DNA of 64,000 nt, taken from positions 1-64,000 of the forward strand of contig JAJFKA010000035.1 in the NCBI GenBank assembly GCA_021773555.1, written 5' to 3'. The position numbers and the translations under genes were made by a program. Positions 9,149 through 26,835 of this stretch are shown piece by piece. The notes below the pieces were generated by a model. It made no database searches, was not told where the DNA came from, and was given only the letters and a program-made list of their open reading frames with translations. Positions within the stretch are counted from its first letter, which is position 1. Each line of letters starts with the position of its first letter. The stretch is from Gammaproteobacteria bacterium (GTDB taxonomy: Bacteria; Pseudomonadota; Gammaproteobacteria; Pseudomonadales; Azotimanducaceae).

Positions 9149-9168
9149 GGAAAATCGTCCTCTTCGGT

Positions 9169-9215
9169 TACTGGTTATTTGTACAGTATTATGCACATTT
9201 TGAGCGCTGGGCCAA
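9169..9215 (-). promoter_or_regulatory. LexA (SOS) box and promoter of recA
   Basis: On the minus strand the core reads CTG-TACAAATAAC-CAG inside the 20-nt site at 9169-9188. It matches the gammaproteobacterial consensus CTG-N10-CAG with the flanking TA on both sides. It overlaps a likely sigma-70 -10 element TAATAC (9186-9191), with TTGGCC (9210-9215) as -35 after an 18-nt spacer. LexA bound here would block RNA polymerase. The site lies 20 nt before the recA start chosen above. Confidence 0.88.
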
Positions 9216-9403
9216 ATCTTTTTTTCAGGATCTGCCAGAACGCCGTGTCATCGGGGTCAGGTTTGAAATGCTTTTTGGTGTTGATCGGTACATAACTCAC
9301 ATTTTCACGAAATCAGCGGCCAAAACATCCGCCAATGACTGAAAACTTCGAGAGAAAAACATGATTGTTTCTGGCCGATGGTGATCAGCACCACTGTGTC
9401 TGT

Positions 9404-10411: not shown

Positions 10412-10448
10412 TTTCGTTACCCGGCGGGAATTGACCTAAAAACAAAAG

Positions 10449-11426: not shown

Positions 11427-11600
11427 CGCGTGTCTCCGTATCCGTTTGATACCCACATGTGAAATAGCCGCAGCCTACCGTGCCGGGTCGCAGCCACGCA
11501 ATATCTTAACGCGCTTTGCGACAGCACGCATGACTCGGCATGGACGAAACAGACAAAAAGCGTTAAATTGATCGTCGGAAACGGTATCCCTTGCGGACCG

Positions 11601-11699
11601 GCGGGAGTCACCCCCGCACTATCCAGCAAACCTCTATGTAAGGTATCTCTCCTTAAGGTTTATAACCCTATCGATGAGACCAGTGGGATTCACCCCCAC
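11601..11699 (+). promoter_or_regulatory. Twin-hairpin leader before the cyclase-like gene
   Basis: The roughly 300-nt spacer before the cyclase-domain gene has no credible gene. It contains GCGGGAGTCACCCCCGC (11601-11617) and GTGGGATTCACCCCCAC (11683-11699). Each folds into a 5-bp stem with a 7-nt loop, AGTCACC or ATTCACC. The second base pair differs compensatorily, C-G versus T-A. A third weaker hairpin, TAAGG-TATCTCT-CCTTA (11639-11655), lies between them. The last hairpin ends 29 nt before the ATG, and GGAGG follows. I match it to no known riboswitch. A protein-binding or CsrA-type leader is possible because GGA is present in both stems. Confidence 0.5.
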
Positions 11700-11728
11700 C
11701 ATAAACACCAAAAAAGTGAGGAGGACTT

Positions 11729-12256
11729 ATGTCCACACCATCCCATGAACTACCTTCACGCCTGTCTGAAAGAAATGTCATTCTGGCCCATCTTGATATC
11801 CGCGGGTTCCTGCATATCATCGAACAGTTGGAAAACCAGATTGCTGTTACTAATTTCCTCGACGGGTTCTATGAAATCTGCTCCACGCAAACTGGTGCTC
11901 ACGGCGGCGAAGTAATCAAATATATGGGCGACAGCTGCCTATCACTGTTCGCCGATACAGACGCCGAAAACGCCATCGCTGCTGTCGCGAAAATTCGTGA
12001 GGCTTTCTCGCAGTTCTGTATCGACAGCCAGGTAACCCCAACAGATATACGGGGGGGCCTGCATATTGGTGACGTGATTGTCGGACAGTTCGGTCCGGAG
12101 GGTTTCAAAGATGTCATTGGTAAGACGGTAAACACACTTTTTTTGATGTCTGGAAATGGCATCACCATTAGTGAACAGCTTTACCGAAAACTACCCTCCG
12201 ACAAACGCAGCCCCTGGCGGAAGCAGAGCGGACATGTTGTCTATGTGATGAAATAG
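11729..12256 (+). CDS. Stand-alone class III nucleotidyl cyclase domain protein
   Basis: The 175-residue protein is a single adenylate/guanylate cyclase homology domain with no attached sensor. The metal-binding aspartates are present: D23 in LAHLDIRGF and D68 in KYMGDSCLSLF. GLHIGDVIVGQFG and FKDVIGKTVN follow, with the base-contacting Asp and transition-state Asn in place. The catalytic Arg expected four residues after that Asn is Leu (VNTLFL). The protein may therefore be weakly active or a binding domain, but I cannot decide from sequence. AGGAGG lies just before the ATG. The gene is isolated: a REP-like, homopolymer-rich stretch follows it and the leader hairpins precede it. Confidence 0.8.
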   Translation: MSTPSHELPSRLSERNVILAHLDIRGFLHIIEQLENQIAVTNFLDGFYEICSTQTGAHGGEVIKYMGDSCLSLFADTDAENAIAAVAKIREAFSQFCIDSQVTPTDIRGGLHIGDVIVGQFGPEGFKDVIGKTVNTLFLMSGNGITISEQLYRKLPSDKRSPWRKQSGHVVYVMK

Positions 12257-12265
12257 CTTAACGTC

Positions 12266-12376
12266 GGGGGGGGGGTTTATTTGGTCTGTTTTTTTTTTCT
12301 CGGTATTTTAATCCCGACCCCACCGATCGCGCCCCCACCGATCCGTTTACTCCGGCACTTTACCCCGACCCCACCA
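12266..12376. repeat. Homopolymer tracts and degenerate REP-like repeat
   Basis: The 122-nt spacer after the cyclase-like gene has a run of ten G (12266-12275), a run of ten T (12289-12298) and three copies of CCCCACCRATC (around 12317-12327, 12332-12342 and 12367-12377). At 12346-12372 it carries TTTACTCCGGCACTTTA followed by CCCCGACCCC. This is the right half of the REP-like palindrome found at 21.2-22.3 kb, with one changed base (ACCCC for ACTCC). The left half is missing. It abuts the stop codon of the DUF3604 gene. Confidence 0.65.
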
Positions 12377-12378
12377 AT

Positions 12379-14430
12379 CTAACTCAATGGGACATACCAG
12401 ATGGGCGATGACCAGCTGCGTTCCTGCAGCGTGGGATGCAGATTCGGTCGTGGCGGCACACCAGCGCGCAAGGCATCCCAGGTGGACCATCGGCACGTCG
12501 GGTTTTCGAGTACTCGTACATAATAAAAGGCCTGCTGGGTTGGCTCAAACTGTGGATCCTGCCAAAGCGTTTTGAGTTCAGCCGCACCACTGTTGGCCGA
12601 AATTGCACAGGTTGCGAGATCAACTGTTGCACCATTGTCAGGGCACCGATGTGTCAATGGGTCGACGATGCCACCATCAGAACACGCCACATCATAGACC
12701 TGCTCGTGCGATACGCCTGCGTCCAACCAGCCCTTGACCACCTGCAGTCGTTGCAGGGGTGCGGATTTGGAATCCCGTGCCGCCCATACAATGAATGAAG
12801 GGGTCAGGTCTTTCTGACCAATCAGGTCTGAACCCATTGATACGCCATTCGCATAGGCCTGACTTAGCATGTCGCGTGCACCCAGCAGTGCTTCGTCGAA
12901 GCCGTAACCGGCAAAAAAACGGACCGGTATACGGGGACCGGAAGTCGCAAACGTTTCCTTGCGCCGAAATGCGTCATAGATCGCACCTCGTTCATTTTCT
13001 TCCGCCCAGACACCGGTAAGCCCGGAGGCACTCCAGGTCTGTGCGGCGACGACACTGTAGGTTCTCCCATCGAGATCTTCCGTTTGTCGTGCGATGACCT
13101 CAGTGGCGTCGGCTGCCGCTTGCGCCTCTTTCGCCGCTGCCGCGGCAGCCTCGCCGAGTGGTACTGAACCCCGGAGCGATGCGGTTGCATCCAGAAGCCC
13201 AACCTTGCCGAACCAGTTCGATTCGTCATCAGAGATTGCACCAGTGTGTGTATCCGAGGAACCGATGAAGCCAAATTTGAATGGATTGGTGATACCACGA
13301 TCCGTGAACGCCATGCCGTTCAGCAGGGCTTCACGCGCGTATGAACCCTTCGGTTCGCTATAGAGCATGGTCGCAATGCGATAGGGCATGATTTCAAAAT
13401 CCGCCCATTCATCTGTCTCGGACAGGCTCGGATGCGTCTCGGATGTCCCCTTTATCTGTGTAATTTCAATCAGCGGCTCATTGCGCGAACGCAGGCCAGC
13501 GTACTCATCATCCAGGGGATCGCCTGCCCAATCGACCAGTTTGAACATCTGCCCGTTCGAACCGTTGGAATTGTGCGGAATAGCCAGGGACTCAATACCC
13601 TGTCCGCGCAGGTCATCCATCCAGCGCCACAGACCCTCGGGGTCCTGGCTATGGAAACGAGAATAAGGCATGGCGGGTAGTTTATCGGCACCGCGAAAGA
13701 TGACATTACGGTGCAGGTTGCCACGGTCATCCGACGAGGTGGTGTACTCGTAGGCGACAAAGGTGGTGAATTTACCGGGCTGATTGAATTGTTCCGCCGC
13801 ACGAATCGTATCAGCCCAGGCGGTACGGGAGATGTCATAGACCTCCTGGACCTTGACCTCACCACCAGTAATCGCGGCCAGTGTATCTCGCAGGAAGGTG
13901 CCAAACGCAACGCCCCGACCCGGCAAACTGTCGATGTTCAGGTTTTCAGGCGCGTTGAGATTGTGCAACCTCTCAACGTAACTGTGTTTGGAGAACTCGG
14001 TGCTGGTATCAGCGGCCGCTGAAACAGTACCCAAAAACATGGCGTGGTCGGTCACCGCATAGAAGTCGAGCGGCTCTCGTAATTGTACGTCAAAGCCGGC
14101 CGGATGTTTTATCGCCTCACCCCTGGCATAGCGGTAGGCATCATACGGTGTGGCAAGTGTGCCGAAGGCGAAGGCGTCAAATGAGTAGGCGGTGTGTACA
14201 TGCAGGTCGCCGAAATAGGCGTTGCGGTTTGCGTTGACTGCTGGATGCGCGATGAGAGTGTCTTTGGGCATCGGCAGGCGGGCGCCGCCAAACCGAGACG
14301 GTGTGGCCGCAGCAACCGGTTCGTCAGCAGCGGCGTCTGTTGCAGGTGGTGTCTGGTCCTCGCCCGAACAACCGAAGAGCCCCAGCGCGAGAATGAGGAG
14401 GATTGATCGACCCACTATTCCATATTGCAT
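12379..14430 (-). CDS. DUF3604 domain lipoprotein
   Basis: This 683-residue protein starts with a lipoprotein signal (ILLILALGLFGCSGE, Cys near residue 21), so it is probably anchored to a membrane facing the periplasm. The mature part carries the DUF3604 signature YFGDLHVHTAYSFDAF near residue 72, DFYAVTDHAMFLG, and a C-terminal HTGAISDDESNWFGKVG. These histidine-rich motifs recall PHP-type metal phosphoesterases, but the function of DUF3604 proteins is not established. They are frequent in marine proteobacteria. GGAG lies 8 nt before the ATG. Its stop codon adjoins the degenerate REP-like repeat. No operon partner is evident. Confidence 0.87.
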   Translation of the reverse strand: MQYGIVGRSILLILALGLFGCSGEDQTPPATDAAADEPVAAATPSRFGGARLPMPKDTLIAHPAVNANRNAYFGDLHVHTAYSFDAFAFGTLATPYDAYRYARGEAIKHPAGFDVQLREPLDFYAVTDHAMFLGTVSAAADTSTEFSKHSYVERLHNLNAPENLNIDSLPGRGVAFGTFLRDTLAAITGGEVKVQEVYDISRTAWADTIRAAEQFNQPGKFTTFVAYEYTTSSDDRGNLHRNVIFRGADKLPAMPYSRFHSQDPEGLWRWMDDLRGQGIESLAIPHNSNGSNGQMFKLVDWAGDPLDDEYAGLRSRNEPLIEITQIKGTSETHPSLSETDEWADFEIMPYRIATMLYSEPKGSYAREALLNGMAFTDRGITNPFKFGFIGSSDTHTGAISDDESNWFGKVGLLDATASLRGSVPLGEAAAAAAKEAQAAADATEVIARQTEDLDGRTYSVVAAQTWSASGLTGVWAEENERGAIYDAFRRKETFATSGPRIPVRFFAGYGFDEALLGARDMLSQAYANGVSMGSDLIGQKDLTPSFIVWAARDSKSAPLQRLQVVKGWLDAGVSHEQVYDVACSDGGIVDPLTHRCPDNGATVDLATCAISANSGAAELKTLWQDPQFEPTQQAFYYVRVLENPTCRWSTWDALRAGVPPRPNLHPTLQERSWSSPIWYVPLS

Positions 14431-14890
14431 ATCCGGCTCCAGTTTTTAACATTTCGGACCGAGCGTACCGTACTTTTAATCACAAGGCTAACCACAAGGT
14501 TTGTGGTTCTTGACGATGCTAATCAAGGTTCGATGGTGGTTCCGAGGCGAGTCAAACTCGTGTCTGCAAGATCGTTGTCCAGAGCCAACAGTTTGTGCTC
14601 GACAGGTTCAATTACAATTTTGCAATAAATATTCTCAGTTTATACCTTTGCCTACAATGCTACGGATAGCGCCTGAAGAAAGGTGTTTGGCGACAATTAG
14701 ATTAGTGTCATCTTAAAATGATGCAATATGACCGTATAAAGTAATTGGCGTTAAACAGAAACGCTTAACGACAAATTGATGCAGCGATCGGCTTTTGCTG
14801 AAACGGCGCCGATATTCTAACAACTGGATTGTTCTTCTTTTCGCTATGAAACATAACGCGGGACAAGGCACTTCATAAGCGGTTCTGGAG
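14431..14890. other. 460-nt spacer with a perfect inverted repeat
   Basis: No gene with a credible start and ribosome binding site is visible. AACCACAA-GGT-TTGTGGTT at 14490-14508 is a perfect 8-bp inverted repeat about 60-80 nt before the DUF3604 start, a possible operator or hairpin. On the minus strand a 38-codon open stretch ending with a stop near 14530 reads like protein (VIEPVEHKLLALDNDLADTS). It lacks a start and may be the tail of a decayed gene. The rest shows nothing recognisable. Confidence 0.4.
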
Positions 14891-16315
14891 CTAATCCAGC
14901 AATCCAAGCTCAACCTGCCTGGCAAACTGTAATCCGGCTATGATCTGGTTATTCATCGATGAAATGAAGAAACCCCCTGCCGGTGAAAGAAGTGCCAGCG
15001 ATGGATACAGCTGTCGTATCGCGTTTAGCTGCTGTTCGAACAAACTTTGATTTTGCCTGGTAGGTAACGTCAAAGCTTTTTTCAAATGTATCAGCGTTAT
15101 TCTGTCCGCGGATACTGGCGCCTTCAGCACACCCTTTTTTTGCAGGTCCTCAGTTAAGATCTTTTTTACTGTTTCTTCATCATCCATATCCCAATCGGCG
15201 AATTCCGCATTAACCTCCGCGATCATTCGATGTTCAGCACTATCATTATTGACGCAGATATCGTGGTTGAATATTCGATAGACAGGCGTGTCTTCATCCA
15301 CAATAAAGAGGGTGTGGCTCCGGTGACCAACTAATTCAGAAGGTACAGAAATCAGCGCAAGTGCGAGTGAGGTTCGATTGAATTCAGGATCGCTGCCCTC
15401 ATTACCGGTAGCTTCCAACAGTGAAGCATGTTGGGCGCTCCATGCCATTTTATTCGTGCTCAGTACCGTTCCGTCCTGCAACTCGAGCCTGAATTCATTG
15501 TTGTCATGTCTGAGTGTTTTTATCGGTTGCTGAATCAACGTGACACTCGGATCACGACGAAGTTGGTTCATGATCGCTCGGGGCAGAGCCCCTGCGTCCC
15601 CTTCGGTTGGAAATGAAAAAACAGTCTCATTAAGGCATTGAGGTGAATCGCTCCATTGACTCAGCAACGTTTCGGGATAGAAGAGTGGCGTCCAGGCAAC
15701 CCGGTGCCAGCGTGCAAGGAACTCACTATCCCTGGCACCTGTAATCTTTCTGGCAATTGGGCTAATCAGCAGATTGTGAAGAGTTGGACCATGGTTGTAG
15801 AACGCGGCTGTTTCATAATCCAGCTCATCATAGTAGCTGCTGAGTTTGTGCCGCGCATGCAGGTGACTCATCTTCTGCTGCAGAGAGGCCCTTAATTCCT
15901 CCTGGATGACTTCCTGTTCACCGGCTGTCAGGCCCCCTCTGAGCACTTCAAATTTATTGCTCTGCTCTAGATCTTCATAGACCTTGTCCCGAAATATCAT
16001 CTGTGGCGCGGACACTGGTTGGGTGGTAATGAATTCGTGTACGAAATTCTCAATATGCGAAGTAAATCGACCACAGTCGTTACGAACGTTTGTGTTAAAC
16101 GACAATACGTCCGCATGCTCCTGGTCGTTAAAGGAAGTGAACTCGTAAAGCACCATGCCAAGATCGAAATGTTGGCCGTAGAGATTTTGACCATTGAAAT
16201 AGCCGCCCCAATGGGGTGTCGGGTTTACAATGGTGCAAGGGATGCGGGCCTTCGATAGCTGCACAGCAGCCGTCAGCGCCGCAAGGGAATTACCAGCAAT
16301 AACAACGTCGGACAT
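14891..16315 (-). CDS. FAD/NAD(P)-binding oxidoreductase-like protein
   Basis: The protein of about 474 residues begins with a dinucleotide-binding beta-alpha-beta unit, MSDVVIAGNSLAALTAAVQL, and a C-terminal segment with LSPAGGFFISSMNNQIIAGLQFARQVE. That layout fits amine-oxidase or UDP-galactopyranose-mutase-like flavoproteins. The glycine signature is unusual: GxGxxG is replaced by GNSLAA, so two of three glycines are absent and FAD binding is uncertain. The middle part, with YYDELDYETAAFYNHGPTLH, is not diagnostic. I start at the ATG at 16315; a GTG four codons upstream is the alternative, and neither has a strong ribosome binding site. The substrate is unknown. Confidence 0.6.
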   Translation of the reverse strand: MSDVVIAGNSLAALTAAVQLSKARIPCTIVNPTPHWGGYFNGQNLYGQHFDLGMVLYEFTSFNDQEHADVLSFNTNVRNDCGRFTSHIENFVHEFITTQPVSAPQMIFRDKVYEDLEQSNKFEVLRGGLTAGEQEVIQEELRASLQQKMSHLHARHKLSSYYDELDYETAAFYNHGPTLHNLLISPIARKITGARDSEFLARWHRVAWTPLFYPETLLSQWSDSPQCLNETVFSFPTEGDAGALPRAIMNQLRRDPSVTLIQQPIKTLRHDNNEFRLELQDGTVLSTNKMAWSAQHASLLEATGNEGSDPEFNRTSLALALISVPSELVGHRSHTLFIVDEDTPVYRIFNHDICVNNDSAEHRMIAEVNAEFADWDMDDEETVKKILTEDLQKKGVLKAPVSADRITLIHLKKALTLPTRQNQSLFEQQLNAIRQLYPSLALLSPAGGFFISSMNNQIIAGLQFARQVELGLLD

Positions 16316-16366
16316 GAGGTTCACCACGATTGGATTCTGTTGGTCTGTAAAAGAGAGTAGTGAAAT

Positions 16367-16604
16367 CTACCCAACGCGAAATTGCCCCAGATCAAGCGCA
16401 TCGCGCAAACTGGCGACCGGTGGTCTGGTTATCTCATAGTCTGGAGTTTCAGCGAGTTGGACAGGATGAAATTTGACGGGATCGGTGTATCGTGCCGCGG
16501 TAACAACATCTACTCTTAATTTTAAAGCCAACCGGAGCTAATTCGATATTCAGGCCATTGAATGAATATCCCGTTAAAATTCCTATCCTCAAAGGGCGCA
16601 TCAT
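16367..16604 (-). pseudogene. Possible small frameshifted gene remnant
   Basis: Two overlapping minus-strand frames look like one broken small gene. From ATG at 16604 the first frame reads MMRPLRIGILTGYSFNGLNI, then LAPVGFK. In the neighbouring frame the sequence continues as KLRVDVVTAARYTDPVKF and ends with RPPVASLRDALDLGQFRVG at a TAG (16367-16369). The switch would occur in the A-rich run at about 16514-16527. Joined, the product would have about 78 residues. I do not recognise a family. It could also be chance open sequence or a sequencing slip. The rest of the 16316-16655 spacer shows nothing. Confidence 0.3.
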
Positions 16605-16655
16605 TCGCGGAGCCTGTCTGCCAAAAGCTACTGATGTTCCAGCGCAGGCAATATC

Positions 16656-18146
16656 TCACCTAAGTTCTCCGATTTTTGTGGATGTCTTACTCATCAAAAT
16701 CAGCGGTGTAAACATACTGGAATCGCGGGATTGTTCGCCCCGGATCAGCTCGAGTAAAAACTCTCGCTCGGTATCAACTCCATTAATCAAATCTTCAATT
16801 TTTGACTCAACGAAATAGTCGGGTCTGGCACCACCACGATTAGTGTTATCGAGCACAGCTATCTCATACCGCGTAAATGGAAGTGTTACCCTAACGCGGC
16901 TATTGGGAAGGCTTACTATGCGAATTTGGCCGGCGTTGTCACCCTGATATCCACCTCCACATTCTTCACCCACAAGTTTTACGCGCCCGGTACTTTGCGA
17001 AAATGCGCAGAACTCGGCAGCCGTAGAGGCCGACCCGCCATCAACCAGCGCATAAACAGGTCCTGTGTATGCATTACGCTTTGGTCTTTGGAATTTTAGG
17101 CCAGGGTGCCACCTATCCATAAAGCGTAAGAGTCCGGGTCGCAGGAAAAGTCGCGACAGCGAGTCACCAGTTGCATACTCCAGGTAAGATTGACTCTTTA
17201 GCGTCGTTGCAAGCGTTCGAAAGTAGCGAAATGGTTTGTGGGCAATGTAGCGCATTAACAAAATCGCATACTCGTCAAAGCCACCGGAGTTACCCCGGAG
17301 GTCTATCACCAATGCCTCACTATTCTGCTCCGATATAGCGCTGAAACTTTTCTTAAGAAAACGAGGAAAGTTTGTAGTTCCCGATAAAAAAGTGGGTAGC
17401 GTGAGAACAGCGACATTGGGATCAGTCAAAAACTCTAGGCTAAGTGGGCGGGAAAGATCTCTTTCGCGCTTTGAAATACAGGCGCCAATTTCACCCGAGA
17501 TACCCGCGTTTAGACGGATGTATTTTTCTTCGGCATCATATTTTCGATATCTAATGTCAAAGGCATCCGTATTTCCCAAATATCGCCAGTAGCGTGATGC
17601 GAAATTTCGCTCGAGGGTGCGATACTTATGGCTGCGGTTTTCTCCATCTGCCGAGCCGTGAACTACAAGTTTTCGAATAAGTGATATAGCACTGTCGCCA
17701 TTTATAGAGAGTATCTCGGCCCCTGTCAGGGTACCCGGTGCCTGACAGGAATCGCGCACCCAAAGACGCTCGTTTAACACCTTTACCCTCAGCGGAAACA
17801 GGCGCGCCTCGCTATTCTCGAAGGCAACCAATTTATTTGAACCCAGCAATACCGTGTGCACACACTGAACGCCCGTTACGACCGGCGACAGTACGCGCAA
17901 AAATTCACGTTCTGTCATATTGGGCTGCACAGACGAACCAGCGTTGTCGAACAGTTGTTCTATTTCAGCTGCAGGTCGATAGCGATATAATCCCGGATGC
18001 ACTTCTTCATATATTTTTTTGAGCACCGCAATATCGCTGTGCAGCTCCCTGGCACTATATTTAATGTCCACATTCCATGGATCACACCTGGCAATGGTGG
18101 GCGGCCCCACTGCAAACAAGGTAAGCATGGCAAATAGTGCCTTCAC
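16656..18146 (-). CDS. S41-family secreted serine peptidase
   Basis: The 496-residue protein has a signal peptide (MKALFAMLTLFAVGPPTIA) and should be exported. The tail-specific protease (S41) core is in the second half: VIDLRGNSGGFDEYAILLM near residues 295-313, and the nucleophile region VDGGSASTAAEFCAF near 372-386. GGARPDYFVE near 450 fits the substrate-flanking strand. The N-terminal half, with HSDIAVLKKIYEEVHPGLY, is typical of the S41 group that includes uncharacterised exported proteases. The start overlaps the stop of the upstream membrane-protein gene by 4 nt, so the two are translationally coupled. A ToxR-like regulator is divergent from the pair. Confidence 0.85.
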   Translation of the reverse strand: MKALFAMLTLFAVGPPTIARCDPWNVDIKYSARELHSDIAVLKKIYEEVHPGLYRYRPAAEIEQLFDNAGSSVQPNMTEREFLRVLSPVVTGVQCVHTVLLGSNKLVAFENSEARLFPLRVKVLNERLWVRDSCQAPGTLTGAEILSINGDSAISLIRKLVVHGSADGENRSHKYRTLERNFASRYWRYLGNTDAFDIRYRKYDAEEKYIRLNAGISGEIGACISKRERDLSRPLSLEFLTDPNVAVLTLPTFLSGTTNFPRFLKKSFSAISEQNSEALVIDLRGNSGGFDEYAILLMRYIAHKPFRYFRTLATTLKSQSYLEYATGDSLSRLFLRPGLLRFMDRWHPGLKFQRPKRNAYTGPVYALVDGGSASTAAEFCAFSQSTGRVKLVGEECGGGYQGDNAGQIRIVSLPNSRVRVTLPFTRYEIAVLDNTNRGGARPDYFVESKIEDLINGVDTEREFLLELIRGEQSRDSSMFTPLILMSKTSTKIGELR

Positions 18147-18844
18147 CTCGTTATCGTCTGCCTGCGGGAATTGAATGACTCTGTTTGCAGGTAATAAAAC
18201 GCTATGGGAATTAGTGTGTAAATTACGTTTACAGGTTCGACACCCCGACTGGCAATATTAACCGTAAGGATAAATGTATTCACAAGCTCCGCCAGTATGG
18301 GCGTTATCCAGATGGACAAAAGCGCACAACCGAGCCATCTGGGTGCACCGGCTTTCGTCAGTAATATTATCAGCGCCACCACGCCATAGAGATTGTCCAA
18401 TACGGTGTGTCCGACCCAAAATGACTGAAGTGCACTGAGCGACAATAGCGTGGCAACTGCGTACAGCACAAAACACGAAACCGGTAAGTAAACAGCCATA
18501 AGTTGCCAGCTTTGTGTTTTCGCGCGCGTCATAGAAAGAGCCGTATGCAACAAAAATGCCTGGGCAAACGTACCGGAAACAAGCAGGTAGGGAACATAGG
18601 TGAGATTTTGGGATTCAAAGTGTATTGGCCCACCCCAATGCAAGGACTGGCACATCAGGTAAGCAGCTATTAAAACACTTTGTGCAATTCTGGGCCGAAC
18701 AAAGGTATCAACTGCCGCCACTAGAAAAGCAATTCCGACAAAACCTAAAACAAGCGCAAACCAAAAGTCCTCGGCTTGCCACAGAGCAACCGCTCTCCAG
18801 ACAACAACCCCTGTCGCACCCGCAAGGAATAGCAATCTCACCAT
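18143..18844 (-). CDS. Multi-pass membrane protein of unknown function
   Basis: I do not recognise the family. The product of 233 residues (255 if a TTG at 18907 is used) is strongly hydrophobic, with about seven predicted membrane segments, such as LLFLAGATGVVVWRAVALW, FALVLGFVGIAFLVAAV and YGVVALIILLTK. This recalls seven-helix sensor or 7TM-type input modules, but there is no soluble output domain. The start is uncertain: ATG at 18844 has no clear ribosome binding site, and the TTG alternative adds a polar N-terminus. It overlaps the S41 peptidase gene by 4 nt and is divergent from the membrane-tethered winged-helix regulator. The three may form one regulated unit. Confidence 0.6.
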   Translation of the reverse strand: MVRLLFLAGATGVVVWRAVALWQAEDFWFALVLGFVGIAFLVAAVDTFVRPRIAQSVLIAAYLMCQSLHWGGPIHFESQNLTYVPYLLVSGTFAQAFLLHTALSMTRAKTQSWQLMAVYLPVSCFVLYAVATLLSLSALQSFWVGHTVLDNLYGVVALIILLTKAGAPRWLGCALLSIWITPILAELVNTFILTVNIASRGVEPVNVIYTLIPIAFYYLQTESFNSRRQTITR

Positions 18845-18942
18845 TTCGATTTGCTCGTGATATGATTGGCGCGGCCTCGAAGCGCGAAAGCCATCATTTG
18901 TTCTCAATGTTTAAAGCAATGAAATGTTACAGCCAGCGCTAC

Positions 18943-18961
18943 GAAACTTAACTTAAATTTC
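18943..18961. promoter_or_regulatory. Near-perfect palindrome in divergent spacer
   Basis: GAAACTTAACTTAAATTTC (18943-18961) is a palindrome with two non-central mismatched pairs. It lies in the spacer between the membrane-protein/S41 operon and the winged-helix regulator, 44 nt before the regulator ATG. ToxR/CadC-type regulators often bind such A/T-rich repeats and control the divergent operon. That link is inferred from position. Confidence 0.4.
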
Positions 18962-19005
18962 TCTGAATAAGCCTTATTTTTTACTGATTTTGCCGGAGAA
19001 CGTCG

Positions 19006-19473
19006 ATGCAAACACTCAAATTCCTGAAAGACACAACTCAGAATCTTGTTCGATTTAACGGCTATGAGCTCAATTTAGACACCGGAGAGCTTCACCACAA
19101 AAGTCACATGGTGCCGCTACGACCAAGGGCAACCCGTTGTTTGCAACTCCTTGTGGGCCGCGCCGGACAGATGGTTACTTTAGACGAACTACGACAAGAA
19201 TTATGGGGCGATATCGTAGTGGATTGGCAAGCCGGTGTGCACCAGCTAATACGTCAGATCCGACTGGCACTAAAAGATGACAATCACGAATTGGTGGTCT
19301 CGGTACCACGTTTGGGGTATCGGTTTTCGGCGGAGGTGAGCAATTTTTCATACGTAGGATCAGCCGCTGTCCAAATGTCCAGGATAGGAATGCCGGGCGT
19401 CTATCTTGCGGGATTTGCCACGCCCTGTTTACTCGTTATTGGTTTTTTCGCCTGGTGCGCCTCACTCGCATAG
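19006..19473 (+). CDS. Membrane-tethered winged-helix regulator (ToxR/CadC-like)
   Basis: The 155-residue protein has an N-terminal OmpR/PhoB-type winged helix: FNGYELNLDTGELHHKSHMV, then LRPRATRCLQLLVGRAGQMV and QLIRQIRLALKDDNHELV, ending with VPRLGYRF near residue 108. A single membrane segment at the C-terminus (about 128-154, VYLAGFATPCLLVIGFFAW) is followed directly by the stop. ToxR and CadC normally have a periplasmic sensor after the helix; here there is none. A partner would have to sense the signal, and the divergent seven-segment membrane protein is a candidate. GGAGA precedes the ATG by 8 nt. This architecture is clear, its regulon inferred. Confidence 0.87.
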   Translation: MQTLKFLKDTTQNLVRFNGYELNLDTGELHHKSHMVPLRPRATRCLQLLVGRAGQMVTLDELRQELWGDIVVDWQAGVHQLIRQIRLALKDDNHELVVSVPRLGYRFSAEVSNFSYVGSAAVQMSRIGMPGVYLAGFATPCLLVIGFFAWCASLA

Positions 19474-19647
19474 ACAGGTCTATTTCAGGCTATTCCAAAG
19501 CGCGAAAACACCTCTCGCCCAGCACCACCAATCTCGACATCGACGGAAATAGCACACTAAATCGTCGAGATTATTGACAGTTTTCCCAGGACAATCCGAC
19601 CGCGCTCCCTGCAGATAGCCAGAAAGCACTGAAAAATAAGCATAATT

Positions 19648-19670
19648 CGATTCGTGGCACGAATCGTGCT
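19648..19670 (+). promoter_or_regulatory. Sigma-54 promoter overlapping a 19-bp palindrome
   Basis: TGGCACGAATCGTGCT (19655-19670) has GG and GC ten bases apart, as sigma-54 (RpoN) requires, and differs from the consensus TGGCACGRNNNTTGCW at one base. It overlaps CGATTCGTGGCACGAATCG (19648-19666), a perfect odd palindrome. The element lies 91 nt before the PEP-CTERM gene start. In other bacteria PEP-CTERM genes are known to be under RpoN with the PrsK/PrsR two-component pair, which fits. Confidence 0.78.
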
Positions 19671-19761
19671 GAGTGTTCTTCTGCGCTCCTGGGAAACCGG
19701 ACAACGACCACTGCCCGACGGAAAAACTGGGTCCGCCCATACTCATTCAGAGGGTGTGCTG

Positions 19762-21246
19762 ATGCAGAAAGACAAACATGCCACGAGACTATCCGTCTCA
19801 CTGGCGTTCACGACGCTAACTTTTTTTTCATCAATGACAGCCAACGCGGTCCCACTGGACCTGTCTTTTTTTGAAACCTTTGGTCGGCCCGACACGACAA
19901 TCGCTGAAGTTAACATCGCGACCATGCAAAGCCAGTGGTCGCTTGCCGCTGGTGCGCGTACGGTGGCCGAACCCGCCATTAACAACAGCGCCAACCTGAT
20001 TAACGCGTTGCACGCGAAGGTGCTTGTGCTGGACCTGGCGCTACATCAATTGGATGCTGTGTTCGCGGTCGCGCCAACTGCTGCGTTAAGTGTTGTCAAC
20101 GGTGCTACCGCAAATATCAATGACGGCGATCTGGCCGCTGCGGAAGTCGCGATACTGGAATTGGATATCGCCTCCGGCAATCTCGGCGCGGTCGCAGGAC
20201 TCGCGCTCACCCCTACCGCGGATCTCTCCAACGGTGTGGCACTTTATGCCGACGTTCGTTCCGATGCTCTTGTCGCGCAGGCGGCAATTGTCGCTGCGGT
20301 TGGTGAGTTTGGAAGTACGCTGGCGAGCGCAGTCGATTTGAATGCAGACCTGACAACCCTACTCGCTGACCTGCAGGCCGTCATCGTCCGTGCCAGCGCC
20401 GCGGGTGCGCAACTGATTGCGGAAGCACCTAGCCTGGGTGCCGACAGCGCCGCGGTGAATGCAGCAGGCTTGAATCTGCTGCACGCCGCCGACAATTTAC
20501 GTGATATCCCGAGCGTATTGCTTGGTGGTTCTGCCGCTGCGATCTCGTTGTCGAGCGCAGCGACGTCGCTGTTTACCTCGGGTGCCGATGCATTGACAGC
20601 ATTTTCTGACGCACTTGCGAATCCTCTGGTCACGGTCGAATACTCGTTTGCTGCCGCCGAACCCATCATAAGCTCTGAATTCGATTGTGGTTTCATTGGT
20701 TCCATTACGGGGAATAACAGTTCCACGCTTGGGCTCGGGGCGCTGGAAAATGACATCGTCGCAACGTTCGGGCTGGAGTTGACAGAACTTGCGGCTGACG
20801 CCACTGGGGTTTGCAACGAATCAATTTTCGTTTCTGCGACTCGAACCATATCAGGTGTGCCTGAATTGGGTGAAGTGGTAAACACCGGTGTGGCGGCAAT
20901 CGACTTCAGCTATCTCGTCTATCCCAACGAGCCTTGTGCTATCGCTTTTGAAGGCTATACGGACGGGGAAACCGGTGAAGAAATCCCGCCTGTCTGTTTC
21001 GAAGAGTTCCACATGCCGCAATTTGGGCTTGAACTTTATGTCGATCCGCTCGTGGGCGCCACCGCGACTTTCGGCATCACTGGCTCCATTGGCTCGCCGT
21101 TCGAAATTACCGGCATTGTCCTCGGGAATGGTGAGAACGGCTTTGACGGATTCTTTGAAGTACCCGTGAGTGTCCCTGCCCCACCAACCTTGCTGCTGCT
21201 ATTGCTCGGGCTCGCAATCCGGGGTCGGAGTAAAGTGCCGGAGTAA
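19762..21246 (+). CDS. PEP-CTERM sorting-domain protein
   Basis: The exported protein has about 494 residues. It starts with a signal peptide (LSVSLAFTTLTFFSSMTANA) and ends with a PEP-CTERM tripartite signal: VPAPPTLLLLLLGLAIRGR, that is, a Pro-rich motif, a short hydrophobic helix and basic residues. Such proteins are sorted and cleaved by an exosortase and usually go to the surface or exopolysaccharide. The centre is Ala/Leu/Asp-rich and helical (about residues 40-290), with no known enzyme motif. I choose the ATG at 19762, which has AGAGGG 7 nt upstream. The last codons and the stop lie inside a REP-like palindrome, so the repeat supplies the C-terminal SKVPE. No exosortase gene is in the window. 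Confidence 0.85.
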   Translation: MQKDKHATRLSVSLAFTTLTFFSSMTANAVPLDLSFFETFGRPDTTIAEVNIATMQSQWSLAAGARTVAEPAINNSANLINALHAKVLVLDLALHQLDAVFAVAPTAALSVVNGATANINDGDLAAAEVAILELDIASGNLGAVAGLALTPTADLSNGVALYADVRSDALVAQAAIVAAVGEFGSTLASAVDLNADLTTLLADLQAVIVRASAAGAQLIAEAPSLGADSAAVNAAGLNLLHAADNLRDIPSVLLGGSAAAISLSSAATSLFTSGADALTAFSDALANPLVTVEYSFAAAEPIISSEFDCGFIGSITGNNSSTLGLGALENDIVATFGLELTELAADATGVCNESIFVSATRTISGVPELGEVVNTGVAAIDFSYLVYPNEPCAIAFEGYTDGETGEEIPPVCFEEFHMPQFGLELYVDPLVGATATFGITGSIGSPFEITGIVLGNGENGFDGFFEVPVSVPAPPTLLLLLLGLAIRGRSKVPE

Positions 21247-21293
21247 AGAATCAAGGCTGGCCACTACTTACTCCGGCACTTTACTCCGACCCC
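21221..21293. repeat. REP-like palindrome with 26-bp perfect arms
   Basis: The 26 bases at 21221-21246 (starting GGGGTCGGAGTAAAG) are perfectly repeated in inverted form at 21268-21293 (ending TTACTCCGACCCC), with a 21-nt spacer. The stop codons of the converging PEP-CTERM gene (21244-21246) and unknown gene (21264-21266) both lie in this element, so it may act as a bidirectional terminator or RNA-stabilising hairpin. Related copies are at 21945-22004, 22248-22308 and, as a half, 12346-12372. Confidence 0.88.
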
Positions 21294-21899
21294 AATATTC
21301 AGCCAGGCGGCTAGCGCTATAGTCCGTTCTTCCTTCGTCCAGTTGGACGCCCCGGGGGGTTTTAGCGTCTTCAAATAATCATCACAGGCAGACCCAGTCA
21401 GTCGCAACCGTGTGCTGGCTTCGGGTAGCACGCTTTTCTCATCATGATCTACCTGGTCAATATTCAATGCAGTCAGCGCCGCTCTGCAGGCGTCCCGAAT
21501 CGCCTCTCCCTCGGCTACATGAATCTGGGTATGGGACGCCAGAATATGTTCGAGATCAGCCCCGTGCCTTCCCCGACCCGTCAGCACCACCGCCCGAATC
21601 CATGCCAATCCAATTTGCTTTAATTCTTCCCGGTAGCTGGCCAGTTCGATCCTCGCCCGTGCTGCCTGTTTACGGCGTCCTCGGCGCACAACACTCTCAG
21701 GATTACCGGGGCGTGGAATACGTTCGAGGCCCTGCCATCCACCAGCGACGTGGTACGGTTCACTGAGTTCGCGATCGGCACCTACACTCAGTTCAAGCCG
21801 CCGGACATTAAGCGGCAGCGGGTTTTGTTTGTCCGCGTCAATCGCCACGGCGTTGATCCATCCCTGGTGAGCTTTAAATGCCACACATACGGATATCAT
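21264..21899 (-). CDS. Conserved unknown protein between REP-like repeats
   Basis: The 211-residue product starts MISVCVAFKAHQGWINAVAI and contains RRLELSVG, SEPYHVAGG, VRRGRRKQAARARIEL and ILASHTQIHVAEGEAIRDA. I recall similar uncharacterised proteins with a KAHSGWAA start and a HxxxHKAEG-type motif, but no function is known to me. The alternating strand/helix pattern could be a ribonuclease-H-like or related nucleotide-binding fold; that is a guess. Start 21899 has GGAGAGG 7 nt upstream; the frame extends further upstream only into repeat sequence. The last nine codons (GVGVKCRSK) are read out of the REP-like palindrome. It is bracketed by copies at 21221-21293 and 21945-22004. Confidence 0.75.
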   Translation of the reverse strand: MISVCVAFKAHQGWINAVAIDADKQNPLPLNVRRLELSVGADRELSEPYHVAGGWQGLERIPRPGNPESVVRRGRRKQAARARIELASYREELKQIGLAWIRAVVLTGRGRHGADLEHILASHTQIHVAEGEAIRDACRAALTALNIDQVDHDEKSVLPEASTRLRLTGSACDDYLKTLKPPGASNWTKEERTIALAAWLNIGVGVKCRSK

Positions 21900-21944
21900 C
21901 AGCAGACCTCTCCGGGTACCTGTCTCGGAATAACACAACAATAC

Positions 21945-22004
21945 GGGGTCGGAGTAAAGAATCAAGGCTGGCGACTATTTACTCCGGAGCTTAACTCCGA
22001 CTCG
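21945..22004. repeat. REP-like palindrome, diverged copy
   Basis: GGGGTCGGAGTAAAG at 21945-21959 is followed by the shared core AATCAAGGCTGG and by ACTCCGGAGCTTAACTCCGA at 21981-22000. It matches the element at 21221-21293 with several changes and a shorter left arm. It lies 45 nt upstream of the start of the unknown gene, completing the bracket. Confidence 0.8.
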
Positions 22005-22247
22005 AATAGCTCTTGAACCAGTTCAAGCCGAGCCAAACTTCGAGCGGCAGGGAGAACACTTCTCATCACTGCGTCTGACAGTCACGACCGAAAAATTATT
22101 CACGACAATCCATCTGACAGGGTATTCACGGTGCCGGGAGTTGGACTGCCTTCACATTACCAGTGATAGCCATATATCAACTAAAAGACAAAGTTACCTA
22201 ATCGCCGGATCAACCAGCGGCAGGGCTAGCACAACAGCACGGTCTTT
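22005..22247. other. Spacer with short decayed fragments of the unknown gene
   Basis: No intact gene is visible. CAGTTCAAGCCG and AGCGGCAGGG within 22019-22054 resemble the stretch of the unknown gene near 21789-21820. Read on the minus strand with one frameshift they give LPLEV and RLELV, like LPLNVRRLEL in the intact protein. GCCGGATCAACCAGCGGCAG near 22204-22223 is a weaker third match. These may be remains of duplicated copies left between repeat elements. The similarity is short and by eye. Confidence 0.35.
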
Positions 22248-22308
22248 GGGGAGGGGGGTAAAGAATCAAGGCCAGCCACTATTTACTCCGGCACTTTACT
22301 CCGACCCC
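22248..22308. repeat. REP-like palindrome, third copy
   Basis: The left arm is eroded (GGGGAGGGGGGTAAAG from 22248). The core AATCAAGGCCAGCCACTA and the right arm, TTTACTCCGGCACTTTA plus CTCCGACCCC ending at 22308, are intact and nearly identical to 21247-21293. It abuts the promoter of the LuxR-type gene. Confidence 0.8.
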
Positions 22309-22310
22309 AT

Positions 22311-22338
22311 TTGCTTGGCTCGAAATTATCGCTATATT
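22311..22338 (+). promoter_or_regulatory. Probable promoter of the LuxR-type gene
   Basis: TTGCTT (22311-22316) and TATATT (22333-22338) are spaced by 16 nt and form a fair sigma-70 promoter. It begins two bases after the REP-like copy. Transcription would start near 22345, which supports the translation start at 22369 over any upstream extension through the repeat. Confidence 0.5.
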
Positions 22339-22368
22339 GTGGTGATACCCGCTTCCGGTTCGCGACCG

Positions 22369-22794
22369 ATGAAAATGTTGTTCCACGGAAAATCGACGTT
22401 GCTCTACGGCAGCGCAACCGCAATCGCTGTTTTCGCGCTCCAGTGGCTCGAATATCAATATGCCGTCAGACTATTTTCCACTGAACTTTATATCGTGCTG
22501 GTTGCCATCCTGTTCACTGGAGCTGGCATCTGGATTGGCACTCACCTGGGACGACCGCAGACAACCGAATTCCAGAAAAATGAGCGAGCCATCGAAACCC
22601 TGGGACTTACCAATCGTGAAATCCAGGTCCTGGAACTGCTGGCAGAAGGGGACACCAATCAGCAAATTGCCGACCAATTGTTCGTCGCGCCGAGCACCGT
22701 CAAAACTCACCTGGTCCACCTTTACCAGAAGCTTGATGTGCTTCGGCGTACCCAGGCCATTCAAAAAGCGAAACACTTGAAAATCATCTCCTAG
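22369..22794 (+). CDS. Membrane-anchored LuxR-type transcription regulator
   Basis: The 141-residue protein has two membrane segments (about residues 11-27 and 35-54, with IAVFALQWLEY and YIVLVAILFTGAGIWIG) and then a LuxR/GerE helix-turn-helix: LTNREIQVLELLAEGDTNQQ, IADQLFVAPSTVKTHLVHLY and QKLDVLRRTQAIQKAK. There is no receiver or ligand-binding domain. I start at the ATG at 22369; the frame is open to 22141 but runs through a REP-like repeat, and the promoter lies after that. A DUF4199 membrane protein follows after 107 nt; I recall this pairing from other bacteria. The signal and target genes are unknown. Confidence 0.8.
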   Translation: MKMLFHGKSTLLYGSATAIAVFALQWLEYQYAVRLFSTELYIVLVAILFTGAGIWIGTHLGRPQTTEFQKNERAIETLGLTNREIQVLELLAEGDTNQQIADQLFVAPSTVKTHLVHLYQKLDVLRRTQAIQKAKHLKIIS

Positions 22795-22901
22795 TGTCAA
22801 CCAGAAGATTGAAAACACACAAATCAACCTTTTGGTGGATGACCTTTTCTCCAGAATAGCCAGGCTAGGCGCTGGGAAAAACCACAGGAGCAATTATAAC
22901 A

Positions 22902-23414
22902 ATGCGACGAATCATCCTGATTTACGGAACACTGGCCGGTGTCATCATCATTACTACCAACACGCTTAATCTGGAATTAGGTCAGGGCCAGGTGTGGCTG
23001 GGCTTTCTTGTCATGTTTATCGCTTTCAGCAGTATTTTTGTCGCCGTCCGGCAACACCGGGACCAGCACCTGGGTGGCGTCATTACATTTTCCAAAGCGC
23101 TCCAGGTCGGACTCGGAATTTCTGTAACCGCAGGATTCGTGTATGTGGCTTTGTGGGAGTTGTACCTCGCGCTGACCGACTATCAGTTCATCGATCTTTA
23201 TGTGGAGTCTGCTGTAGAGGCCATGCGCCTGAACGCCGCTGGTGAATCAGATCTCGTGGCTGCCACGGCAGAAGGTGAACGTCTTCGCACGCAATACACC
23301 AATCCGCTGATCCGCCTGCCAATGACGTTCGTTGAAGTGTTTCCCATTGGCCTGGTGGTTTCACTGGCATGTGCAGGGACGCTGCGCAATCACGTCAACC
23401 GGTCCCAGGACTAA
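22902..23414 (+). CDS. DUF4199-type membrane protein
   Basis: The 170-residue product has four likely membrane segments: ILIYGTLAGVIIITTNTL near the start, WLGFLVMFIAFSSIFVAV, VGLGISVTAGFVYVALWELY, and PIGLVVSLACAGTL at the end. The order, with a charged loop QHRDQHLGGVITFSKALQVG between helices 2 and 3, is the pattern of DUF4199 proteins, whose function is unknown. It lies on the same strand after the membrane LuxR-type regulator, and the two probably act together. GGAG precedes the ATG by about 11 nt. Confidence 0.75.
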   Translation: MRRIILIYGTLAGVIIITTNTLNLELGQGQVWLGFLVMFIAFSSIFVAVRQHRDQHLGGVITFSKALQVGLGISVTAGFVYVALWELYLALTDYQFIDLYVESAVEAMRLNAAGESDLVAATAEGERLRTQYTNPLIRLPMTFVEVFPIGLVVSLACAGTLRNHVNRSQD

Positions 23415-23433
23415 CGAGTTTGTGCGGACGCGT

Positions 23434-24024
23434 TCAAACCTGTGTCGCGCGACGGTACGCCTCGCGATTCCGGAGGCGGGCAAGATAGACCCGTAGATTC
23501 GGATAATCGTCGAGTAATCCGAACTGCTCAATGAGCACCAGTGAGTAGCCCATCATGATATCTGCCGCACCAAATCCGGCGTCAAGCAGGTATTCACGAT
23601 CTGACACGGCTTGCTCCACCACCGCCAGGCAATCCCGGGTTTTTAGCACGGCAACCTCAGACATTGATTCCTGTTCGCCACGCAGGAGCCGGTTCAAACC
23701 CAGGGGACGCACCAGTGTTGCCTCGCTAAACCAGCACCACTGATGGTGGAGCGCACTTTGACTTGTTCCGGGCGGCGGCTGCAAACGACCCTCGCCATAA
23801 CGCTCCAGGATGTAATCGATCATCGCGCCAGATTCAAACATGGTCAGGTCGCCATCAGTCATCACCGGTACTTTCCCTGCAGGACTGATCAATCGCCACT
23901 CGGCTGAATCACGATAGGACTGAGAGAAGTCGATGAGCTCAATCTCAACAGCCAGGTCGAGCTCAAAACACAACCAGACGGGTCGCAATGAACGAGTACC
24001 GGGTACATGAAAAATTTTGAGCAA
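23434..24024 (-). CDS. Glutathione S-transferase family protein
   Basis: The 196-residue protein has the thioredoxin-like N-terminal domain of GSTs: FHVPGTRSLRPVWLCFELDL at residues 5-24, the cis-Pro motif SPAGKVPVMTDGD near 47, and the glutathione-contacting ESGAMIDYILERYG near 64. The helical C-terminal domain has the N-capping region LLDAGFGAADIMMGYSLVLI. GSTs conjugate or reduce substrates with glutathione; the substrate here is unknown. It is divergent from mutS across 249 nt in which I see no further gene. Confidence 0.87.
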   Translation of the reverse strand: MLKIFHVPGTRSLRPVWLCFELDLAVEIELIDFSQSYRDSAEWRLISPAGKVPVMTDGDLTMFESGAMIDYILERYGEGRLQPPPGTSQSALHHQWCWFSEATLVRPLGLNRLLRGEQESMSEVAVLKTRDCLAVVEQAVSDREYLLDAGFGAADIMMGYSLVLIEQFGLLDDYPNLRVYLARLRNREAYRRATQV

Positions 24025-24273
24025 TCTGACCTGCCGATTGAAGCCGGATCAAAAGCATAGCAGCTCTTACAACTGCAGCAACCCGCGACGGATAGGTTTC
24101 CGAAACCTCACAGTAAGGCACTGACTTTACTTCACATTCAACGTTGATAGCGCTTAGTATGGTGTTTCGAGATCCATACAGTCCCGTAAATAAAACATGA
24201 ATCCTGGCGGTTCCTGGTCACGCTGTTCATCCGTGTAACTATTTGAATTTAAAGCAAATATATTAGAAGTGTA

Positions 24274-26835
24274 TTGAAAGAAAAACCTGCCACCCAGCAC
24301 ACACCGATGATGCAGCAATACCTCGGTATCAAGGCGAAGCATCCCCACGAGTTGCTGTTCTATCGTATGGGCGACTTTTATGAGCTGTTCTTTGACGACG
24401 CCAGGCGTGCGGCTGAATTGATGGACGTCACCCTTACCGCCAGAGGCGCAGCAGCAGGTGAGCCCATCCCCATGTGCGGGGTGCCGTTTCATGCTGTGGA
24501 TACCTATTTGGCCCGGCTGGTAAAGTCGGGCGTATCTGTCGCAATCTGCGAACAGATTGGTGACCCGGCGCTGGCCAAAGGACCCGTTGAACGTAAAGTG
24601 GTGCGTATCGTCACGCCGGGTACGCTCACCGATGAGTCATTACTGGATGCCGGCCGGGATAACCTGATTGGCGCGATCTTCCAACAGGGGGAAACCTGTG
24701 GGCTTGCATCACTGGATCTCGGTAGCGGTCGCTTCGAAGTACTTGAAGTCAGTGACGAGGATTCACTGATCACCGAGATCCATCGTCTCGCACCAGCGGA
24801 ACTGCTGATCGCGGATGACCATGGATTACCCGCCGCTATCAGCAATCGACCCGGTGTTCGTAAAAGAGCGCGCTGGTTATTTGACTACGATGAAGCAGTG
24901 ACAGCGCTGACGAGGCAGTTCCGAACCAGGGACCTGACCGGTTTCGGTTGCGCTGAACAGCACGCGGCAATTTGTGCGGCAGGATGCCTCCTTGACTACG
25001 TAAAGGAAACCCAGCTTTCCGAGCTACCCCATATCCTCGCGCTGCATACGATTAGCCGCGACGAATCGGTCATCATCGATGCGGCATCCAGACGCAACCT
25101 GGAACTGGACACTAACATCAGTGGCGGAACTGAAAATACGCTGTTTCAACTGCTCAACAGAACCTCCACAAGCATGGGCGGGCGGATGCTGAAACGCTGG
25201 ATCAACAGACCTGTCCGCAGCCGCCAGGTACTTAATTCACGATTAGATTGCGTCGCCCTGCTGGCAGAGAGTTATCACTACGAAGCGTTGCAGGTCGACT
25301 TAAAAAAAATTGGCGATATCGAACGGATCCTTGGCAGGATCGCACTAAAGTCTGCCCGACCAAGAGATCTGGCGCGGCTTCGGGATGCACTCACCCTGCT
25401 GCCAGATCTCGGCCAGACCCTTTCACAATTTGAGACAACCCGGTTGACCGAGCTTAAGCAGGGCTGCGCACCGTTCCCGGATCTCTGTGCTCGCCTGACC
25501 GCTGCCATTATCGACAATCCACCCGTGGTGATTCGCGACGGGGGGGTCATCAGTCCCGGCTACGACAGCGATCTGGATGAACTGCGCGGAATCAGCGAAA
25601 ACGCAGCAGGATACCTTCTGGCCCTTGAACGTGAGGAACGCGAGTCGACAGGTTTAGGTACGCTTAAAGTCGGTTACAACCGCGTCCACGGATACTACAT
25701 CGAGATCAGTCGGGCGCAGTCAGACCGGGCACCAGCGCACTATGTGCGAAGGCAGACGTTGAAAAACGCAGAACGATTTATTACCCCGGAACTCAAAGAG
25801 TTTGAGGACAAGGCACTGAGCAGCAAAAGTCGGGCGCTTGCACGCGAGAAGGCGCTCTATGACGAGCTGTTGGATGAACTGCTCGTTCACCTGGCGCCGT
25901 TGCAGCGAACCGCCGCCGCGCTGGCAGAACTCGACACCTTCGCTAACCTCGCCGAGCGTGCCGTCAGCCTGTCGTTGACCAGGCCACTGTTAACAGAAGA
26001 CGCTGAGATCGAGATCACTGAAGGTCGCCACCTCGTCGTTGAGAGCATGTTAAGTGATCCATTTGTGGCCAACGATCTCACCCTGAACCAGGAACGGCGT
26101 CTGCTCATTATTACCGGCCCGAATATGGGCGGTAAATCGACCTATATGCGCCAGACAGCAATCATCGCCTTGCTCGCCCACATCGGCAGTTTTGTTCCCG
26201 CACGAACCGCGCGGATTGGCGAGCTTGACAGGATCTTTACCCGCATCGGCAGTTCTGATGACCTCGCCAGTGGTCGCTCGACCTTCATGGTGGAAATGAC
26301 CGAGACCGCGATGATCCTGAACAATGCTACCGAACACTCGCTGGTGCTGCTCGACGAAATCGGCCGGGGAACTTCCACGTTTGACGGGTTGTCGCTGGCC
26401 TGGGCGGTGGCGGAACACATTGCCCTGCACCTGCGTGCTTTAACACTTTTCGCAACTCATTATTTCGAATTAACAGCACTGCCTGAGGTATTGCCCGCCA
26501 CATTGAATGTCCATATGACAGCACGGGAACATGAAGATCGCATTATCTTTATGTACTCAGTTAACGATGGCCCCGCCAGCCAGAGTTACGGCCTGCAGGT
26601 CGCAAAGCTGGCAGGAGTTCCGGCTTCAGTCATCGCACAGGCACAGCAAAAATTACTGGAGCTTGAAGAAAACGAGATAAGGCGCGCGCCGCAGCAGTCA
26701 GACCTGTTCGTCCCGCCCCAGGAGGAGCCTGATAAGCTGCGCGAGGAAATCAGCAATCTCAACCTCGATGACCTGACCCCCCGGGAAGCGCTCAGCTTGC
26801 TTTACAGCCTGAAAGCCAATGTTGTTAAGCCTTAA
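24274..26835 (+). CDS. mutS: DNA mismatch repair protein MutS
   Basis: MutS recognises mismatches and recruits MutL. The 853-residue protein has the mismatch-wedging FYE in [14 protein letters not shown] near residue 30, the lever and clamp domains, and the ATPase motif [13 protein letters not shown] near 615, [14 protein letters not shown] near 693 and [13 protein letters not shown] near 729. The start is most likely the TTG at 24274, because no ATG or GTG is in frame before it and the family has about ten residues before HTPMMQQYL. fdxA follows on the same strand, as in Pseudomonas. Confidence 0.97.

Follow-up and report, generated by a model that had tools for sequence, protein, structure and literature searches.

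The closest described relatives of the palindromes at this locus are TIRYTs and REPINs. TIRYTs are RAYT-like genes flanked on both sides by terminal inverted repeats; some share the motif GGGGWSAS, and the repeats occur in dimers and clusters, according to the relevant sections of PMC3733652. In the part of PMC6006769 used here, 20 of 26 TIRYTs belong to the HTH-bearing subclass 2.1, and Y---NP and HuH signatures are given. REPINs are defined in PMC3116915, whose relevant portion also reports clusters of near-identical REPINs.

The DNA analysed is a stretch of 64,000 nucleotides from a gammaproteobacterial assembly, referred to as the window, in which a gene for a 211-residue (211-aa) protein is surrounded by copies of a palindromic element. 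The original prediction was that REP-type mechanisms could move or duplicate such a bracketed gene, or that it could be a domesticated cassette. The features of the locus are the following:

8105-9148, minus strand: recA
12346-12372, minus strand: single 27-nt unit, an extra copy within the same 15-kb recA-mutS block
19654-21246, plus strand: convergent ORF, start uncertain, no Pfam match; its last residues GRSKVPE and its stop lie inside E1
21221-21293, no strand assigned: E1, an inverted doublet (73 bp) made of 27-nt units, containing the stops of both convergent ORFs
21264-21899, minus strand: 211-aa ORF with ATG at 21899, predicted RuvC-type fold, between E1 and E2
21907-21913, minus strand: GGAGAGG, resembling a ribosome binding site, 7 nt upstream of the ATG
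21945-22004, plus strand: E2, 60 nt, defective; 13 nt of the left arm gone, centre same as E1
22248-22308, plus strand: E3, 61 nt, defective; left arm shorter by about 12 nt, centre same as E1
24274-26835, plus strand: mutS

The 27-nt repeat family fits the published TIRYT/REPIN-type elements, and the behaviour of the palindromes here already has precedents in the cited portions of PMC3733652, PMC6006769 and PMC3116915. As in the TIRYT/TIRtron arrangement outlined in the relevant sections of PMC3733652, terminal inverted repeats with GGGG heads flank a RAYT-like Y1 gene, and the repeats occur singly, as dimers and in clusters as well. The GGGGTCGG heads in the window and in the transposase units on contigs C57 and C76 differ at one base from GGGGWSAS, the part-consensus in those sections; GGGGTCAG, at the right end of the C185 unit and in some relatives, fits this motif, which is common to part of the published TIRs only. 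Unlike most TIRYTs, which the cited part of PMC6006769 places in subclass 2.1, the transposases of 228-231 aa have no recognisable HTH-type C-terminus. The likeness to REPINs, as they appear in the portion of PMC3116915 used here, lies in inverted units around a short spacer that form a hairpin (E1), in related transposases within the genome and in local clusters. E2 and E3 are unlike REPINs in that they hardly fold better than shuffles, and the genome has about 31 units instead of hundreds. The family was not filed as classical REP/REPIN because the GTAG-type tag is missing and the ends read GGGG...CCCC. Lastly, derivatives of about 300 bp, apparently left by deletion within a transposase unit between its inverted ends, resemble the general class of MITEs; E1 differs from a MITE in being far shorter and in having no transposase sequence that could be seen.

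Element copies and their family in the genome

The copies had been described as one and the same palindrome. The shared centre was borne out, but only E1 is a true palindrome, since one arm is 12-13 nt short in E2 and E3. Read from the sequence, the arms of E1 are 26 nt long and 100% complementary, and they flank a centre of 21 nt. Its DNA folding energy is -31.5 kcal/mol against -8.4 in shuffles (z -10.9; 0 of 200 shuffles equal), and the folding of E2 and E3 is barely above that of shuffles (z -1.75 and +0.68, respectively). The third copy was correctly placed 244 nt beyond the second, from the end of E2 to the start of E3. The single unit at 12346-12372 had not been mentioned in the original prediction.

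With up to three mismatches, the centre, or spacer, of E1 is found at three places in the 5.2-Mb assembly, all within about 1.1 kb here and on one strand. In addition, the shortened left arm is common to E2 and E3, and a few flanking bases are common to E1 and E2. Because the spacer is common to all three copies and found nowhere else in the genome, E1-E3 appear to have arisen locally from a single insertion. The private spacer suggests that the element was copied locally and not that a gene was captured. A search of plasmids with E1 and a search of viral contigs with the exact spacer gave no match.

The 27-nt unit reads GGGGTCGG[AG]GTAAAGTGCCGGAGTAAA. Its 14-nt head, GGGGTCGGAGTAAA, occurs at 89 places in the genome (at most two mismatches), compared with 27 for a reversed-pattern control. 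E1 gave 63 match rows in its own genome, the palindrome being counted in both orientations, and a script run over 27 loci found 31 distinct 27-nt units with at most four mismatches. The units occur as singles, as short doublets and in the derivatives of about 300 bp.

The search for REP-associated tyrosine transposases found four Y1_Tnp genes in the genome, every one above the Pfam cut-off, and all four proteins score below the NCBIfam cut-off for REP-associated transposases (64.5-72.8 against 80). On C76 and C185 the transposase units are 859 and 857 bp long and are closed by inverted repeats with GGGGTCGG and GGGTCAG heads; these repeats share only the head with the 27-nt unit and continue differently. 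The only transposase unit that carries the 27-nt unit itself is the truncated, IS200-like tyrosine transposase unit on C57, one end of which is the window's unit with one change. Thus the REP-type character that had been suggested for the element is upheld, the unit being found, with one change, at the end of a Y1-transposase gene in this genome and at 31 places in the scanned loci. The translations from C76, C57 and C185 were read to contain HVH or HLH together with YIELNP, in agreement with the HuH and Y---NP signatures. The fourth transposase, on C117 (L017 940-1797), is of another type with 285 aa; no GGGGTCGG inverted-repeat ends were noticed at this gene (L017/L021), and its C-terminus is, we assume, HTH-like.

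Five inverted pairs of 297-344 bp, chosen by eye among the genome matches, have related interiors. The pair on C37, the only one translated, contains pieces that by eye resemble the transposase translations, YRWSSYAA and ILGTKKFRIQFEE. Because the pairs have related interiors, the C37 pair holds transposase-like pieces and the C57 end carries the unit, these sequences are read as a graded series that runs from the transposase unit through a putative deletion derivative of about 300 bp and a doublet of about 70 bp to the single unit. The family extends beyond this genome: of 77 other relatives, 12 have matches to E1 (E 0.001 or better), among them each of the four congeners, and short doublets of 55-84 bp are present in 6 of those 12 genomes. 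The spacers of the doublets read in five relatives (L112-L115, L118) differ from that of E1.

Gene ends encoded by E1

The final nine residues of the 211-aa protein, GVGVKCRSK (203-211), and its stop TAG (21264-21266) are read from E1, which confirms that the element encodes this C-terminus. On the other strand, the ORF at 19654-21246, whose end inside E1 had not been described previously, terminates in RGRSKVPE within the same element; we take its end to be PEP-CTERM-like. The aligned homologues of the 211-aa protein end sooner past a conserved AAW or AAWL, most within a few residues, and the E1-encoded tail is read as an addition because they stop sooner. In the structure model, residues 206-211 have a pLDDT below 50. 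An empty site for E1 was not found among the genomes compared, so that its insertion is deduced from the C-termini of the homologues.

Proximity to gene ends is not confined to E1. Among 30 units, 4 of them from the window and with units at most 200 nt from a locus end left out, 18 lie within 30 nt of the stop of an ORF of at least 100 aa, where 4.9 would be expected at random positions; with ORFs of at least 130 aa the count is 13 of 30 against 2.8, the ORFs in both counts being open frames and not annotated genes. Another ORF of this genome, C117:6568-7455 (L066 270-1160), presumably methyltransferase-like, is likewise bracketed by two 27-nt units, and it ends in the same element-encoded tail GRSKVPE as the unrelated ORF at 19654-21246. 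A terminator scan of 21100-22450 gave no site at E1 and a single site at 21410-21433 (1.2 expected), and a promoter scan found none (0.8 expected). Among published elements, REPs have been described beside convergent genes at their 3' ends, and some provide stop codons, as stated in the relevant sections of PMC3733652.

The 211-aa protein, its homologues and its setting

As predicted, the 211-aa gene lies between element copies, E1 and E2, and it has a good start and ribosome binding site, with GGAGAGG seven bases upstream of the ATG at 21899. The motifs KAH.GW and HVAEGEAIRDA, which had been singled out from the sequence, are conserved in the aligned homologues, and similar motifs presumably occur in a wider family of uncharacterised proteins. 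The protein has one match in its own genome and is thus single-copy there. Homologues were found in 11 of 145 relatives, the own genome included; searches with the protein in 369 genomes from the class and with the family profile in 398 from the phylum, both sets being samples of larger groups, gave the own genome only.

The homologues occupy 13 other distinct places, in relatives and in other genome contigs (L010-L012), with L010 and the match in G435 counted as one place, which they presumably are. Not all 13 are independent, since L086 and L087 (one genus) are alike in context, as are L029 and L033 (one genus). The homologues in G400 (contig C35, split in two pieces) and G389 (a fragment) are included among the 13 places and stand outside alignment A2, as does L029. 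The flanks scanned were usually 1.5-5 kb and shorter at contig ends. At 11 of the 13 places they contain no GGGGTC-type unit with one mismatch allowed. The two exceptions, L029 and L033, hold a distant paralogue in sister genomes with its own small GGGGTCAGAGTAAA palindrome slightly upstream (L033 1320-1352, L029 943-974). At the homologue places with ORFs listed, none of the window's neighbour genes was seen by eye. In six of the ten other gene-bearing genomes E1 was searched against the whole genome, with no match in four (G376, G383, G389, G400), 2 in G369 and 14 in G388, none of them near the gene. The homologues lie elsewhere, so that the refutation named in the original prediction, homologues at the same place but lacking the repeats, does not apply as worded. 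No sign of joint movement of the gene and the repeats was seen, and the gene looks like an ordinary chromosomal member of an uncharacterised, sparse family and not like a mobile cassette.

The block between recA and mutS (9149-24273) is 15.1 kb long and contains the gene and the repeats. In the congener G370 the corresponding gap is about 0.3 kb, and in the congener G369 the contig ends just inside recA, adjoining mutS. Because recA and mutS are adjacent there, the gene, the repeats and their neighbours are content that is absent from the junction in two congeners. Thus the comparison with relatives gave an empty junction for the neighbourhood as a whole, but none for E1 itself. In G371 an integrase-like ORF lies beside mutS (the integrase label of this ORF and the DUF4199 label are our own assumption), and G372 gave no mutS match. 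The neighbour at 22902-23414, used to follow synteny, has a match in G419 alone among 86 other relatives and provided no empty site. The G+C content of the block is unremarkable (0.519, compared with 0.520 and 0.532), and no tRNA gene was found as an island sign in the window or in L097. The repeats did not bring the block in, to judge from the units at 12346-12372 and 21221-22308, which lie away from its borders.

The model of the 211-aa protein is confident (pLDDT 92.6), as is that of the distant member L090 (pLDDT 91.8), which is 22% identical to it. RuvC chains top the list of structure comparisons for both (Z 12.9, rmsd 3.4, 147 aligned for the window protein; Z 14.3, rmsd 3.4, 152 aligned for L090), followed by other resolvases and then by other RNase H-like and actin-like folds. 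The best Foldseek match is RuvC (E 1e-4), with exopolyphosphatases also below 0.001, and the top named match in BFVD is a phage crossover junction endonuclease. The predicted fold thus resembles RuvC Holliday junction resolvase across the whole RuvC chain. Unlike the resolvase, a canonical copy of which the genome carries at C46, the protein shows no sequence-profile relation to RuvC, the family having been compared with nine RuvC proteins, and no match, PF02075 included, in searches of Pfam, NCBIfam and PHROGs. RuvC has catalytic acids on three elements: strands 1 and 4, with two of its metal ligands, and the last helix. In the window protein the segments for strands 1 and 4, residues 2-14 and 98-110, contain no D or E; E190/E191 are present at the last helix. 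At alignment columns 10 and 109 acids are kept in the distant members L033 and L090 and replaced in nearer members, which suggests, at the level of sequence, that a nuclease site was lost within the family.

Several further matches were set aside as chance. A Pfam scan of 11 family members gave 13 families with one member each (best E 0.016), and a PADLOC scan of the same 11 gave one member with one model (E 0.0017). A PDB sequence search with the family profile gave ribosomal protein L35/uL29 alone (E 0.84) and was likewise rejected.

Because a RuvC fold is predicted but two of the three catalytic elements have no acid, the protein is most likely a non-cleaving binder of branched or structured DNA, cleavage having been lost. 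A less probable reading of the same predicted fold, though one that deserves some weight, is a RuvC-like nuclease that is still active and whose altered metal site relies on conserved histidines. H11 and H50 belong to the positions invariant in 11 of 11 rows (with G13, W14, P48, Y49, G131, A137, W187 and A197), H123 and H127 are conserved in 10 of 11, and all 11 rows have an acid at column 190. The bare strands 1 and 4 and the absence of a profile relation to RuvC argue against such an enzyme.

Origin of the arrangement

The arrangement is probably explained by elements E1-E3 that derive from a resident transposase element, were inserted between convergent genes and were copied locally beside an ordinary gene of a RuvC-fold family. 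E1-E3 would be non-autonomous descendants of a resident TIRYT/RAYT-type terminal-inverted-repeat tyrosine-transposase element, presumably transposed by the resident Y1 enzymes. One 73-bp doublet would have inserted at the meeting point of two convergent genes and swapped the last few codons of each for its own in-frame codons and stops, an event that may have been tolerated because only flexible tails changed. The shortened-arm form would then have spread within about 1.1 kb, with one copy just upstream of the minus-strand gene. The bracketing of the gene would be a by-product of this local copying, a single insertion with later copies made nearby being the simplest account.

Of the other histories, the original one, in which E1 and E2 bound a unit that moves or duplicates the gene by a REP-type mechanism, has very little left in its favour. 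On its side, the gene is bracketed, its homologues are at differing places in relatives, and C117:6568-7455 also lies between two units. It is opposed by the single copy, by the 11 of 13 homologue places without a unit, by the 4 of 6 searched relatives without an E1 match and by the defective state of E2 and E3; in addition, E1 took over the 3' end of the gene, which the boundary of a carrier would not need. That three separate insertions came to surround the gene by chance, without any local copying, is highly improbable for another reason. Units are numerous and form clusters in other parts of the genome, as such a history would have it, but the shared centre is confined to this locus and E2 and E3 have the shortened arm in common.

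Selection could also have kept E1 as a functional two-sided gene end that supplies stops, a basic tail and a transcript-end hairpin. The near-perfect hairpin at convergent 3' ends, the 18 of 30 units near ORF stops and the published REPs often found at such sites, some supplying stops (in the cited sections of PMC3733652), speak for this; the absence of a predicted terminator-like site at E1 and the decay of E2 and E3 speak against it, and avoidance of coding sequence alone would yield the bias towards stops. This reading is accordingly improbable, and it is just as improbable that the repeat family as a whole is a portable two-sided gene end (stops, short basic tails and a shared transcript-end hairpin) kept for that role, although the tail GRSKVPE does end two unrelated ORFs of the genome.

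With local copying of an inserted doublet as the probable history, a striking bracketed gene is explained as two ordinary things meeting. The locus offers a worked example of how one transposase-associated palindrome can rewrite two gene products at their C-termini simultaneously. As the most interesting remainder, the protein provides a lead: its family is uncharacterised, is sparsely distributed and has a predicted RuvC fold.
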